In this document: one piece after another, positions 19,823-26,853 of the stretch | Numbering within the stretch: the first letter of the stretch is position 1 | Layout of the letters: each line of letters begins with the position of its first letter | Source of the DNA: Kangiella marina | GTDB lineage: Bacteria > Pseudomonadota > Gammaproteobacteria > Enterobacterales > Kangiellaceae | Length of the DNA: 64,000 nucleotides | NCBI RefSeq assembly: GCF_039541235.1 | Contig: NZ_BAABFV010000001.1 | Location: 1,240,001-1,304,000, forward strand | Direction: 5' to 3' | Translations under genes and position numbers: made by a program | The notes under the pieces: generated by a model | Database searches by the model: none | Told to the model about the DNA's origin: nothing | The model's input: the letters and a program-made list of their open reading frames with translations, nothing else

Positions 19823-20440
19823 ATGCATTATCAAAAGGCCAAATACTTGCTTGGAGCGGCCAAAATTAGCCAACTTCCGGCTGATGAAGGGATCGAAGTC
19901 GCTTTTGCTGGGCGATCGAATGCAGGTAAATCCAGCGCCCTTAATGCGCTTACGCAACAGAAAAGCCTCGCCCGCACCAGTAAAACCCCTGGCCGCACTC
20001 AACTCATCAACGTTTTTACGCTTGAAGAGGATGCTCGTTTAATCGATTTACCCGGATACGGTTACGCCAAGGTCCCGGAAGCGACCAAGCTCTTGTGGCA
20101 GGAAGAACTCTCTCGCTACCTACAAGAACGCCAGTGTTTGCGTGGTCTCGTTCTGCTGATGGATATTCGTCACTTCCTCAAAGACACCGATCAACAAATT
20201 CTTAAATGGGCGTATGACGTCGGACTGCCCGTGCACTGCCTACTCAGCAAAGCCGACAAACTGAAACAAGGCGCCAAAGCAAAAGCCTTGCTGCAATGTA
20301 AAAAGCAACTTAATGAGCTGCACCCCGAGGCCAGCGTACAAGCCTTCTCATCCACCAAGAAAGATGGCTTAAGCCAACTTTTCGCAAAGCTTGATGCATG
20401 GTACGCTCGCCCTGAACAGTCTTTGCAAGATAAGGATTAA
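19823..20440 (+). CDS. engB: Ribosome biogenesis GTPase EngB (YihA/YsxC)
   Basis: 205 residues with the G1 motif GRSNAGKSS (about 31-39), G2 threonine in TPGRTQL, G3 DLPGYGYAKV (about 74) and G4 SKADKL (about 140). EngB acts late in assembly of the 50S ribosomal subunit. A TPR-protein gene follows after five bases, probably in the same transcript. Confidence 0.96.
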   Translation: MHYQKAKYLLGAAKISQLPADEGIEVAFAGRSNAGKSSALNALTQQKSLARTSKTPGRTQLINVFTLEEDARLIDLPGYGYAKVPEATKLLWQEELSRYLQERQCLRGLVLLMDIRHFLKDTDQQILKWAYDVGLPVHCLLSKADKLKQGAKAKALLQCKKQLNELHPEASVQAFSSTKKDGLSQLFAKLDAWYARPEQSLQDKD

Positions 20441-20445
20441 CCATC

Positions 20446-21312
20446 ATGCTAAAGTCACTACTTAAAACCACACTCTCAGTATTGCTTCTCTTCGTCAGTG
20501 CAGCGACTTTTGCCGCAGAAAATCAAGACAAAAAAGCTACCCAACCCGAGAAGACCAGTAGTTACCAACCGTTAATCGAACGCTATATCCTCGATGAATT
20601 AAAAGCGGTCCGTCAGGATCAGCAAACACTCAGAGCTGAAATGGAGGAAAAAGTTGCGCATGCGCGACTGGATGCTTCTGACAGAGCCATTCGATATACC
20701 TCCGATACGCTCAACAACATGTTCATCATTATCACCACGGCAGCATCAATTTTAGTCTTGATGGGCTGGCGCTCGATGCGCGATGTTCGCAGCAAACTTA
20801 ACGAAGTAGTAGAAACTAAAATTAATGAACTAACCAGTGAGTACGAAGATCGTCTACACGAACTCGAAGGTAAACTGCGCAAACGTTCGCAAGAAATCAT
20901 CGATGCTCAAGAAGATATCTCACGCTCCAATGAAGTCCACTCGATTTGGATGCGCGCCGGACTGGAAAGCAACCTGCATCAAAAGATTAAACTGTATGAT
21001 GAAATCATGGCCATTAAGCCAGAAGACATCGAAGCCTTAATTTACAAAGCAGACGCCGCTTTTGAACTGGGTGATTACGAGTGGGCATTCAGCCTTTCCA
21101 ACCAAGCGATTGAACAAGACGCAGATTATGGTCTAGCTTATTGGCAGCGTGCTTGTGCTAATGCGGCTAATGGTGCTACCCAAGAAGCCATCAACGATAT
21201 CAAAATTGCCATAACCAAAGCACCTAAATTAGTCGACGAATTGGAACGAGAAGCGGCCTTCGAAGACTTACACAAACTCGAAGAATTCGAAGCTCTCAAA
21301 CCCAAAGCGTAA
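20446..21312 (+). CDS. Membrane-anchored coiled-coil TPR protein
   Basis: A 288-residue protein with a signal peptide (to about residue 23, ATFAAE), a short extracytoplasmic part, a transmembrane helix about 88-106 (FIIITTAASILVLMGW), a charged coiled coil about 110-165 and tetratricopeptide-like repeats about 180-265. It starts five bases after engB and ends in a strong terminator. TPRs suggest protein binding; no enzymatic motif is visible and I cannot name a function. Confidence 0.8.
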   Translation: MLKSLLKTTLSVLLLFVSAATFAAENQDKKATQPEKTSSYQPLIERYILDELKAVRQDQQTLRAEMEEKVAHARLDASDRAIRYTSDTLNNMFIIITTAASILVLMGWRSMRDVRSKLNEVVETKINELTSEYEDRLHELEGKLRKRSQEIIDAQEDISRSNEVHSIWMRAGLESNLHQKIKLYDEIMAIKPEDIEALIYKADAAFELGDYEWAFSLSNQAIEQDADYGLAYWQRACANAANGATQEAINDIKIAITKAPKLVDELEREAAFEDLHKLEEFEALKPKA

Positions 21313-21442: not shown

Positions 21443-21597
21443 AAAAAAAGGGGTGGCCTGAGGGAACATAGGAACCACCCCAAATACGCAATTCAGCTTG
21501 GGGAAACCGAATTGCAAAGTCCCGCTGTAAGGAGGGAGTCGCGGGGAGCACTTCATTGTGCTCATTAAGATAGACCCACGTTTAGGGCGTTTGTTTC
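21443..21597 (-). ncRNA. Candidate small RNA in the polA-engB (Spot 42/ErsA) position
   Basis: On the minus strand four stem-loops follow each other: 21558-21563 with 21546-21551; 21541-21545 with 21521-21525; 21509-21515 with 21488-21494; and a terminator stem 21475-21481 with 21450-21456 followed by seven T (21449-21443). Loops two, three and four each expose a UCCC-type C-rich motif, and loop two contains CCUCCUUA, identical to the 16S rRNA anti-Shine-Dalgarno end. No reading frame fits. Downstream of polA and convergent with engB is where E. coli has spf (Spot 42) and Pseudomonas has ErsA. The 5' end near 21597 is inferred from a promoter at 21604-21632. It could instead be a structured polA 3' UTR. 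Confidence 0.7.
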
Positions 21598-21603
21598 AAG
21601 AGT

Positions 21604-21632
21604 TTTGTAAGGTTGTGTAAAGAAAATTTCAA
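21604..21632 (-). promoter_or_regulatory. Putative sigma-70 promoter of the small RNA
   Basis: TTGAAA (21632-21627) and TACAAA (21609-21604) are separated by 17 bases on the minus strand. A TCACA half-site lies just upstream of the -35, but no matching left half makes a full CRP site. Confidence 0.45.
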
Positions 21633-21666
21633 AGTGTGACATTAACCGACGATCGCAGCAAAAACC

Positions 21667-21701
21667 TGCGCTATATCACACGTTAAGTGATAAATGGCGC
21701 A
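21667..21701 (-). other. Imperfect hairpin after the polA stop
   Basis: TGCGC with GCGCA (21667-21671, 21697-21701) encloses TATCAC with GTGATA (21674-21679, 21687-21692). There is no T-run, so it is more likely a 3'-end stabiliser than a terminator. Confidence 0.4.
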
Positions 21702-21728
21702 AGTTTATGCCTTTGGATTTGCCGGTAT

Positions 21729-24458
21729 TTAGTGTGCTTCATCCCAGTTATCGCCGACATCGACCTCGGCGATTAAAGGCACCGATAGTTCCGCCACGCC
21801 CTCCATCAACTCTGGAATCTTTTTCTTCGCTAAATCGAGGTATTGCTCTTCAACTTCAAAGACCAATTCATCATGAACTTGCATGATCATTGTAATTCCC
21901 GGCTGGTCTTTTAACCATTTATCGACCTCAATCATCGCTAACTTAATGATATCGGCGGCACTGCCCTGCATCGGCGCGTTGATCGCGGTTCGTTCCGCCG
22001 CTTTGCGACGCATGCCATTTTTCGAATGAATTTCTGGAAGATACAAGCGGCGACCATACAACGTTTCTACATACCCTTTATCAGCAGCTTTTTCCCGCGT
22101 GTTGTCCATATAAGCTTCTACGCCCGGGTACCTGGCAAAATAGGTGTTTATGTAATCTTGTGCCGTATTGCGATCGGCGTCAATCTGCTTGGCTAAGCCA
22201 AACGCTGACATGCCATAAATCAGTCCAAAATTAATTGCCTTTGCATCGCGACGCTGATTAGCACTCACATCGTCCAACGCCACATCGAAGACTTCAGCCG
22301 CCGTCGCAGCATGCACGTCCACCCCTTCTTCGAAGGCTTTTAATAAGCCTTTATCCTGCGACAAATGCGCCATAATGCGTAATTCGATTTGTGAGTAATC
22401 CGCAGCCAAGACTTTGCAGCCTTCTGAGGCAATAAAGGCTGTACGAATACTTCGCCCTTCTGGCGATTTGATCGGAATATTCTGCAAGTTTGGTTCGGTT
22501 GAAGATAAACGCCCGGTGGCGGCTATCGCTTGGTGATACGACGTATGCACGCGCTTGGTTTCTGGGTTGATCATCCTCGGCAGTTTATCGGTGTAAGTTG
22601 ATTTCAGCTTACTTAAACCACGGTGTTCCAAAATCAGCTTGGGTAATGGGTAGTCTAAGGCAAGTTCCTGCAAGACTTCTTCAGCCGTAGAAGGTTGTCC
22701 TTTGGGTGTTTTTTTAATGATCGGCAACTCTAGCTCTTCAAATAAAATAGCTTGCAACTGCTTTGGCGAACTGAGGTTAAATTCTTTGCCCGCCAAATCA
22801 AAAGCCTCGGACTCCAATTCTTTTAGGCGCTGCTCAAATTGGCGACTTTTTTCCAACAACAATGTGCCATTAACTAAAACACCATTGCGCTCTACTTTCG
22901 ATAAAATTCTTAAAAGCGGCATCTCAATATGCTGGAAAACTTGAGCCGGCCCTTCTTCTTTTTTTAAGTCGCCCCAGATTTTTTGGTGAAGCTTCATGGT
23001 GATATCAGCATCTTCGGCGGCATAAGGGGCTGCTTTCTCTAGCTCAATCTGATCAAACGTTAGCTGATTCTTGCCCTTACCGGCAATTTCCTCAAACTTT
23101 ATCGTCGCATGGTTGAGGTATTTCAGTGACAATGAGTCCATGTCGTGGCGGCTTGCGACCGAGTTCAGACAGTAAGACTCAAGCATGGTGTCAAACTCAA
23201 TACCACCTAGCGTGATGTCATAACGAGCCAAGACGCTCATATCGTATTTTAAATTCTGCCCAACTTTTTTGATGTCCTCGCTTTCCAACAAAGACTTCAT
23301 TTGCTTTAAAACATCATCCCGATCCAGTTGCTTCGGCGCGCCCATGTAACTGTGTGCCACTGGTAAATAAGCCGCTTCACCATTATCCAGCGCAAACGAC
23401 ATGCCGACTAAATCCGCCTCCATGTAGTTCAAGCTTGTTGTCTCAGTATCAAAGGCGAATAATTCAGCCTGCTGCAACTTCTCTATCCACGCATCCAGCG
23501 CATCCTGACTTAAAATGGTCTCGTACTTGCTGCGATCGATGGCAGACTCTTCGGCTTCGTCCTCACCTTCAGCAACCTCTTCCCCACCTTCTTTTAAGAC
23601 TTCCGTTAACCAGCGACGAAACTCCATCTTGCCGTATAAATCCTTTAATTCGGCTAACTCCGGCTCTTTTAAGGTTAACTCTTTAGGTTCAAACTCGAGT
23701 TCACAATCCAGCTTAATAGTTGCCAACTCATAAGACAGTGGCAACTGCTCTAAAGCTTCCCGCAGATACTCGCCAATCTTACCGCCCACTTTATCAGCGT
23801 TTTCCATCACACCCTGCAGCGAACCATACTCATTCAGCCACTTTACCGCCGTCTTTGGGCCGCATTTATTAACGCCTGGAATGTTGTCGACCTTATCCCC
23901 AACCAACGCCAAATAATCAATGATCTGGTCCGGCTTAACGCCAAACTTCTCGATCACACGATCATAGTCCGTGATCGGGTTGTTCTTATCCATGGTGTTA
24001 ATCAAGGTGACGTTGTCGCTGACCAGCTGCGCCATATCCTTATCGCCCGTTGAAATCACCGTTTCACGCCCTTCGGCGCAGGCTTGTTTGGCCAAAGTTC
24101 CAATGACATCATCAGCTTCGACGCCATCGACCACCAACAGGGGCAAGCCCATGGCTTTGACAATCTGATGAATAGGTTCGATTTGTTGACGCAGGTCTTC
24201 CGGCATTGGCGGTCGGTTCGCTTTGTAATCTGCGTATAAATCATTACGGAAGGTTTTGCCTTTAGCATCAAACACCACCGCCATGTGACTTGGCTGATAT
24301 TCATTAATCAGGCTTTTCAGCATGTTAATCACGCCAAATACTGCGCCCGTCATCATGCCCTCAGAGTTCGTCATGCGCTGTAATTGGGGCACATGATACG
24401 CACGAAATAGATAAGAAGAGCCATCGACTAAGATGAAAGGACTGTGTTTTTCTGACAT
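21729..24458 (-). CDS. polA: DNA polymerase I
   Basis: 909 residues with all three PolA domains. The 5' nuclease spans about 1-300 ([21 protein letters not shown]). The 3'-5' exonuclease spans about 320-510 and keeps the catalytic FDTETTSLN. The polymerase spans about 530-909 with motif [16 protein letters not shown], the O-helix [15 protein letters not shown] and motif [11 protein letters not shown]. Functions in Okazaki fragment processing and repair. Start at 24458 gives the usual N-terminus. Confidence 0.97.
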
Positions 24459-26241: not shown

Positions 26242-26853
26242 TTATTGCAAAGCATTTAAACGGGTGATCACCTCATCTAACCGTTGATTCAATAAAACCA
26301 TTTCAGCTTGCAAATCTGAAATTTCTGCGTTTACCGCCGCGACATCTGTAGCTGCAGTCGCCGCCGCATTAGCCTCAAAGGAATTAAACTGGCTTAGAGT
26401 TACTGCATCTGTGTTATTTACCGCATCAGCAACATAGGCGATCCTACGCTCGCTTCCAGAGCTACCAACAGAAACAGCACCAGTAACAATCTCTGAGCCT
26501 GCACCTAAAGCAACCCCACCATTGAGCCCACTTTCAATTTGCATGACTCTCACACTGCTGGTTTCATCCTGAATGTAAAACACACTGTTCACATTCATTC
26601 CAGCACTTATACCCATTAACCAGTCTTGGGTAGGAAAAGATGCTGAGGTGCTTGTATCTTGAAATCGAATTTGTGGCGTATCCGATTTTATTTTTAAAGT
26701 ATCAAAATCAAAAAACTCATCGTTTATACACGGAGTTCCAACACATGCGGAGCCATTAATGATGACATCATCAAGTATTACTTCATCTGCCGTCGCAAAA
26801 GTAGAAACTGACAGAAAACAAGCTGCCAGTGAAAGTTTAATCCTAAAATCCAT
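26242..26853 (-). CDS. Secreted coiled-coil protein, shorter paralogue of the next gene
   Basis: 203 residues with a signal peptide ending near FATADE (about 22). The middle shares with its neighbour the pattern LK(I/L)K...(I/V)RF(Q/V)(D/N)T, followed later by a glycine-rich segment with ALGAGSEI and SVGSSGSERRI (compare the neighbour's [11 protein letters not shown] and [12 protein letters not shown]). These resemble head/neck segments of trimeric autotransporter or tail-fibre-like proteins. The last 40 residues are a heptad coiled coil suited to trimerisation. It lacks the calcium repeats and the sorting signal. First gene of the pair, with a palindromic operator upstream. Confidence 0.75.
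   Translation of the reverse strand: MDFRIKLSLAACFLSVSTFATADEVILDDVIINGSACVGTPCINDEFFDFDTLKIKSDTPQIRFQDTSTSASFPTQDWLMGISAGMNVNSVFYIQDETSSVRVMQIESGLNGGVALGAGSEIVTGAVSVGSSGSERRIAYVADAVNNTDAVTLSQFNSFEANAAATAATDVAAVNAEISDLQAEMVLLNQRLDEVITRLNALQ

Follow-up and report, generated by a model that had tools for sequence, protein, structure and literature searches.

A probable small RNA gene with C-rich loops downstream of polA in Kangiella marina and its likely relatives in Gammaproteobacteria

Results

The 64,000-nt stretch of the Kangiella marina genome analysed here (the window) carries polA on the minus strand (21729..24458, identified from its ORF and homologues) and, on the plus strand, an ORF that we take from its sequence to be engB (yihA; 19823..20440), homologues of which adjoin the RNA described below in other genomes. 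Downstream of polA and on the same strand lies a candidate small RNA gene of approximately 124 nt (21443..21566), the 5' start of which was estimated from a promoter pattern. A reading of the DNA made from the letters alone (the sequence-only reading) had assigned this RNA to the polA-engB position. The polA side of that assignment is correct, but engB is not directly adjacent, since a 288-aa ORF without a Pfam match (20446-21312) separates it from the small RNA. Just 3' of the polA stop codon, a minus-strand hairpin followed by a run of 5 T (21660..21710) is probably the polA terminator and would separate polA from the small RNA. Folding of 21655-21710 gives -25.1 kcal/mol (z -5.49), a value reached by 0 of 200 shuffled sequences.

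Four consecutive stem-loops are present on the minus strand, the last being a hairpin followed by seven U, in agreement with the sequence-only reading. Folding and alignment define SL1 (21546..21563; loop AAUGAA) and SL3 (21488..21515; an apical CCCC inside UUUCCCCAAG), both with covarying stems, and SL2 (21521..21545; loop GACUCCCUCCUUACA) was obtained by folding. The terminator, obtained by folding, occupies 21443..21481, with a hairpin at 21481-21450 that has a C-rich loop and is followed by seven T at 21449-21443. The complete 124 nt (21566-21443) fold at -48.2 kcal/mol, whereas shuffled sequences average -30.1 (z -5.28), and 0 of 200 shuffles equal the observed value; together with the covariation described below, this led us to reject a chance structure. 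A simple promoter and terminator scan detected neither element at the small RNA, but its loop limit of 8 excludes the longer terminator loop.

C-rich motifs occur, as had been claimed, in three of the loops, namely those of SL2 (CUCCCUCC), SL3 (UUUCCCC) and the terminator (UUCCCUC); the AAUGAA loop of SL1 has none. Within the SL2 loop, the anti-Shine-Dalgarno octamer CCUCCUUA (21535-21528) is indeed identical to the 3' end of the 16S rRNA of Kangiella marina itself, which reads GGATCACCTCCTTA. For every base of CUCCCUCCUUA in this loop the computed unpaired probability is at least 0.99, so that the SL2 loop is predicted to be wholly open. In SL3, the four C are computed to be unpaired and their flanks partly so.

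To follow the RNA beyond this species, copies were sought partly by DNA match and partly downstream of polA. Of the 20 genus genomes examined, 19 yielded a copy of the RNA and one (G002, 55% complete) did not, and the RNA also occurs in three further genera of Kangiellaceae (G020, G021 and G023). The genus and family alignment holds 20 copies, 19 of them distinct, comprising 17 genus rows together with L015, L017 and L131, with the identical L011 and L029 left out. In this alignment 95.7% of the cells pair, and 12 of the 22 pairs show changes on both sides. The covariation score is 0.433 compared to 0.232 for shuffled alignments (0 of 500 reach the observed value) and at most 0.077 for slid ones. 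No column of the SL2 stem (10/10) or of its loop (columns 32-43, 12/12) varies among the 17 genus rows; in SL3, 6 of the 8 loop columns are invariant as opposed to only 3 of 10 in each arm. The invariance of the SL2 stem means that the genus alignment neither supports nor refutes that stem. The segment CUCCCUCCUU of the SL2 loop is identical in 17 of 17 genus rows, and the final A of the eight-base identity with 16S rRNA is found only in L001-L004 and L007. The sequence-only reading had staked its proposal on conserved loop motifs and covarying stems; the loops proved nearly invariant, the SL1 and SL3 stems covary, and relatives with the RNA at this locus have retained the C-rich loops. On this point the proposal stands.

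With a first model (R1), 10 of 99 loci yielded a total of 11 matches at E<=1; L017 had supplied a training row. Across the order, R1 matched 18 of 197 genomes, and 14 of these 18 are Kangiellaceae. From 28 R1 matches we built the covariance model R2, which goes back to the Kangiella RNA and finds a match in 86 of the 369 Gammaproteobacteria genomes sampled; at least G000 and G216 (the latter with the contig of L093) belong to both the training set and the class sample. A renewed R2 search of 93 loci, which include L147-L150 from the order search and from training and exclude the G547 and G452 places, yielded 98 matches, 95 of them distinct. All 22 pairs, including all five of SL2, change on both sides, 92.8% of the cells pair (68.2% when shuffled), and the score is 0.676 compared to 0.225 shuffled and at most 0.123 slid, in an alignment that was fitted to the model and hence is biased towards the structure. 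CCTCC is found in SL2 of 87 of these 98 copies and CCCCA in SL3 of 86, while CCTCCTT is present in only 2. The exact anti-Shine-Dalgarno heptamer is thus a Kangiella feature and the CCUCC core is general, and exact mimicry of 16S rRNA was rejected as the essence of the family.

Of the 95 distinct R2 places, 74 lie beside polA and/or engB (both genes in 40, polA only in 13, engB only in 21); neither gene is present at 21, where some of the stretches end at contig ends. polA is on the strand of the RNA in 51 cases versus 2, and engB on the opposite strand in 59 versus 2. R2 contains no synteny or promoter information, and these counts, like the promoter counts given below, are therefore features outside the model. 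At some places, two to four RNA copies stand head to tail within approximately 1 kb, resembling sibling sRNAs (L123 at 1291-1372 and 1525-1596; L178, L194, L212 and L225; G377 contig 33, G468 contig 3 and G484 contig 8).

To place the RNA among named families, we compared it with Rfam. No family reaches its cut-off in the window. With the RNA alone as query, the entire anti-hemB model (RF02837) aligns to 21547-21443 at 21.9 bits and E 0.0021, below the gathering cut-off of 49.5, and this row is absent when 341 bases around the small RNA are given. The anti-hemB model has one match in the Kangiella marina genome (E 0.00126, from a search that does not give its position), and no match at E<=1 at L017 and L131, which belong to the same family as Kangiella. 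L147-L150 match anti-hemB below the cut-off at 28-33 bits, L147 also matching sX13 (E 0.032), and at 5 of 20 R2 loci (L156-L175) the anti-hemB cut-off is reached. A further 18 R2 loci, chosen from L156-L184 without those 5 and six others, gave matches at the place of the RNA itself to anti-hemB (16), ar14 (4), sX13 (3) and ErsA (1), all below cut-off. Across the class, anti-hemB exceeds its cut-off in 20 of 369 genomes, and among its 10 best matches, 8 have polA and/or engB beside them. At E<=0.01 the model matches 203 of 369 genomes, a figure that was discarded as a count because 4 of 14 control genomes also match, none over the cut-off. The ErsA model has 25 matches in the class, one of them over the cut-off; of the remaining 24, 10 coincide with R2 matches and a further four with anti-hemB matches. 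The sX13 model gave 18 rows below cut-off, two of which overlap R2 places.

Direct matches between the Kangiella RNA and the other named families were not obtained. ErsA (RF01719) gives no row at E<=10 for the small RNA and none at E<=0.01 for its genome, sX13 (RF02232) gives no row for either, and R2 does not match the true ErsA locus L068 at E<=3. The comparison with ErsA that the sequence-only reading had drawn is right in kind, since intermediate sequences are recognised at common places by the models of ErsA, anti-hemB and sX13, but there is no direct ErsA match. Its statement that the RNA does not look like Spot 42 is borne out, as the Spot 42 covariance model (RF00021) does not match the small RNA, and an identity with Spot 42 was rejected. 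Several weak rows were taken as chance, both in the 341-base search (P14, E 0.54; BTnc231, 8.8; AniS, 9.9) and with the RNA alone (Clostridiales-2 on the other strand, 0.16; AniS, 3.9; Atu_C4, 7; mir-7939, 9.2; 6C, 9.6). Downstream of polA in Pseudidiomarina (L103, 2202-2283), a suhB/mmgR match of 41.4 against a cut-off of 41 is perhaps another C-rich RNA of the polA locus.

Could the likeness to ErsA, anti-hemB and sX13 be convergent, with separate RNAs at one locus sharing C-rich loops and the models meeting through composition? The cross-matches are mostly below cut-off, the alphaproteobacterial ar14 matches 4 of the 18 loci, and the control-genome matches of anti-hemB at E<=0.01 (4/14) likewise show that kinship is not needed for C-rich models to coincide. 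Against this, the matches overlap at the same polA-side places, as for the 10 of 24 below-cut-off ErsA matches that coincide with R2, SL2 of ErsA and of Kangiella are alike by eye, and the intermediates have a common stem order and spacing. The common locus in particular argues for kinship; we regard convergence as fairly unlikely, while descent of ErsA, anti-hemB, sX13 and the Kangiella RNA from one family is, judging from these comparisons, likely.

Upstream of SL1 we observed a pattern of the sigma-E type on the minus strand (21573..21597), consisting of GAAAC (21597-21593), 17 nt and GTC (21575-21573), which ends 9 nt before SL1. In Kangiella the pattern is GAAAC or GCAAC, 17-18 nt and GTC. 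Every one of the 20 distinct rows scanned (those of the genus and L015) has AAC-N17/18-GTC, and visual inspection places it in L017 and L131 too. Class-wide, GAAC-N17/18-GTC lies within approximately 70 nt upstream at 47 of the 95 distinct R2 places (shuffled mean 0.67, maximum 3), with a spacing of 17 in 42 cases and 18 in 5; GTC stands 9 nt before SL1 at 24 of these 47, as in Kangiella marina. The related GAACT-N16/17-GTC was found in 14 of 100 polA-downstream stretches outside the family (shuffled mean 0.43, maximum 3), which had been chosen irrespective of the presence of an RNA. Among loci of the named families, GAAC..[GC]TC occurs in 6 of 7 anti-hemB loci inspected and GAACTT..GTC at the ErsA loci L068 and L327, and no pattern is present at the true sX13 loci (0/3).

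RpoE is encoded in Kangiella marina (a match over the curated cut-off). In the same genome (L151), GGAACTT..GTCTG precedes rpoE at approximately 1253-1280, and GAACTT..GTCAA, after 2070, precedes the next gene, which by eye is rseA-like; these are probably sigma-E's own promoters. Our -35 and -10 assignment for the small RNA presumes the general sigma-E consensus, together with these two patterns. The Kangiella -35 element (GAAAC/GCAAC) differs from the GAACTT before rpoE, and this counts against the sigma-E reading. A further element, the TCTTTACACAACCTTACA box (CTTTACA followed by CTTACA or CTGACA as a direct repeat; 21606..21623, minus strand), lies just upstream of the promoter pattern, is conserved in most Kangiella rows and may be a response-regulator site.

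These features allow for the same RNA and family being transcribed by another holoenzyme in Kangiella, such as sigma-70 assisted by a response regulator bound to the TTTAC..TTAC box, in which case the AAC and GTC columns would be inherited without forming a working sigma-E promoter. The atypical -35, the conserved box and the Xanthomonadaceae sX13 loci without the pattern would all fit this. The retention of AAC-N17/18-GTC throughout the genus and family rows, a distance to SL1 equal to that of GAAC-N17/18-GTC in 24 other places, and the empty sigma-70 scan of the locus all speak against it, however, and we judge it unlikely. The small RNA is probably under sigma-E control, as far as the conserved pattern allows one to judge.

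As regards possible targets, repression by sX13 is reported to depend on its C-rich loops as well as on G-rich motifs in the mRNA (PMC3771888) and to be independent of Hfq (same report). For ErsA, the reports on amrZ disagree as regards Hfq (PMC5819304, PMC8575079). The Kangiella marina genome encodes Hfq. The complement of loop 2 before a start codon (AAGGAGGGA-N2-10-ATG) gave 21 matches in 13 of 20 genomes, as compared to 5 for the reversed control. They mostly precede differing or very short ORFs, although ORFs of 216 aa and 260 aa recur in two genomes each; the two matches in Kangiella marina both precede short ORFs (31 and 18 aa). For the complement of loop 3 (CTTGGGGA-N2-12-ATG), 160 matches versus 98 reversed were counted across the 20 genomes, with some sites counted twice, and in Kangiella marina itself there is no excess (5 versus 9 in the control). 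In five close species (L299-L303), the loop-3 pattern recurs before one ORF with a lipoprotein-like start, by eye a substrate-binding protein. These five also share a pattern upstream of an ORF resembling, by eye, an arsenite transporter (only L304 was translated). Both recurrences could be explained by short divergence. Within the window, the ORF at 26242-26853 (203 aa) has GGGGAAA before its start and pairs with loop 3 at -13.5 kcal/mol, the best of 45 mechanically found starts (RNAduplex, run without a control). This ORF has a signal-like start and a YadA-stalk match below cut-off. Overall, neither the pattern searches nor RNAduplex on the ORF starts of the window gave a convincing target in the Kangiella marina genome.

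No gene-specific target stood out, and the SL2 loop, fully unpaired, reproduces seven to eight bases of the 16S 3' end exactly, the heptamer being invariant in the genus rows. Both observations would suit a global decoy, in which loop 2 vies with the 16S 3' end for strong Shine-Dalgarno sequences and has no particular targets. We nevertheless consider this very unlikely: CCTCCTT is found in only 2 of 98 class-wide copies, loop 3 is equally conserved yet is not an anti-Shine-Dalgarno sequence, and the target search is weak, so that its silence says little.

Hardly credible is that the RNA is no independent gene but the 3' end of the polA mRNA, retained as a terminator or stability structure: the shared strand and the purely sequence-based nature of the evidence speak for it, whereas a hairpin with a T run intervenes, a promoter pattern lies upstream, the loops are better conserved than the stems, and in L017 and L045 an extra gene separates polA from the RNA. 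Read-through from polA as a 3' UTR, which the sequence-only reading had named as an outcome that would count against it, is likewise disfavoured by the strong hairpin and T run in between and by the conserved promoter-like element.

Discussion

Our data are best explained by a discrete, trans-acting sRNA gene of approximately 124 nt that is probably the Kangiella member of a family with C-rich loops, found downstream of polA in many Gammaproteobacteria, with anti-hemB, ErsA and sX13 as likely relatives; it would be driven by sigma-E, with loops that pair with G-rich ribosome-binding sites. We hold this explanation with reasonable though not high confidence. The sequences themselves show the stem-loops, the C-rich loops that stay invariant while their stems covary, and the common locus; transcription and repression are what we infer from them.

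The RNA would act as follows. Under envelope stress, sigma-E polymerase would transcribe the gene, and the transcript would end at the small RNA's own terminator. By analogy with sX13, loop 2 (CUCCCUCCUU) and loop 3 (CCCCAAG) could then pair with G-rich ribosome-binding sites, which would keep the 30S subunit from binding and so repress the mRNA. The targets would likely be envelope or secreted proteins. The sequence-only reading had suggested a role in carbon metabolism or surface traits; we found no support for the former, and the latter fits better, as the sigma-E-type promoter points to envelope stress.

A wider reading is that ErsA, anti-hemB, sX13 and the Kangiella RNA are one ancient polA-engB sRNA of Gammaproteobacteria, mostly sigma-E driven, that brakes translation in envelope stress via G-rich ribosome-binding sites. 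In Kangiella, drift would then have turned the loop into an exact 16S 3'-end copy that may rival the ribosome in binding Shine-Dalgarno sequences. We offer this as a tentative possibility that falls somewhat short of a conclusion. The target count in the Kangiella marina genome and the anti-hemB result at L017 and L131 lowered our confidence both in this reading and in the explanation given above. A limited search, confined to the open-access literature, found no paper that unifies ErsA-, anti-hemB- and sX13-type RNAs.

The small RNA appears to be a real, conserved and divergent relative of known RNAs of Pseudomonas, Burkholderia and Xanthomonas that has so far been unlisted. The anti-Shine-Dalgarno octamer is less surprising than the fact that the Kangiella RNA seems to mark one extreme of a polA-locus family which spans the class and is split across databases. 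If confirmed, RNAs that were named and studied apart would become one comparable system, with one rule, a C-rich loop against a G-rich ribosome-binding site under envelope stress, that could be tested in many species.

Among the known systems, Spot 42 occupies the same locus (L069, Xenorhabdus) but differs in sequence. sX13 resembles the Kangiella RNA in its stem-loops (three in sX13) with apical C-rich loops and in having polA as a neighbour at 3 of 3 true loci, and differs in that its model does not match the Kangiella RNA and its loci lack the promoter pattern. ErsA (Pseudomon-1) shares the polA-engB locus, the position downstream of polA on the same strand and the C-rich loops. Its own promoter pattern is GAACTT..GTC, and it is reported to depend on sigma-22 (PMC7565897). 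It is described as having three stem-loops, with a U-rich domain between SL1 and SL2 (PMC8575079) that sets it apart from the Kangiella RNA. For anti-hemB (Burkholderia RNA 7), a transcript listed as expressed in Burkholderia (table in PMC5688073), the Rfam model does not cover SL1 but spans SL2, SL3 and the terminator, and the C-rich loops are alike.
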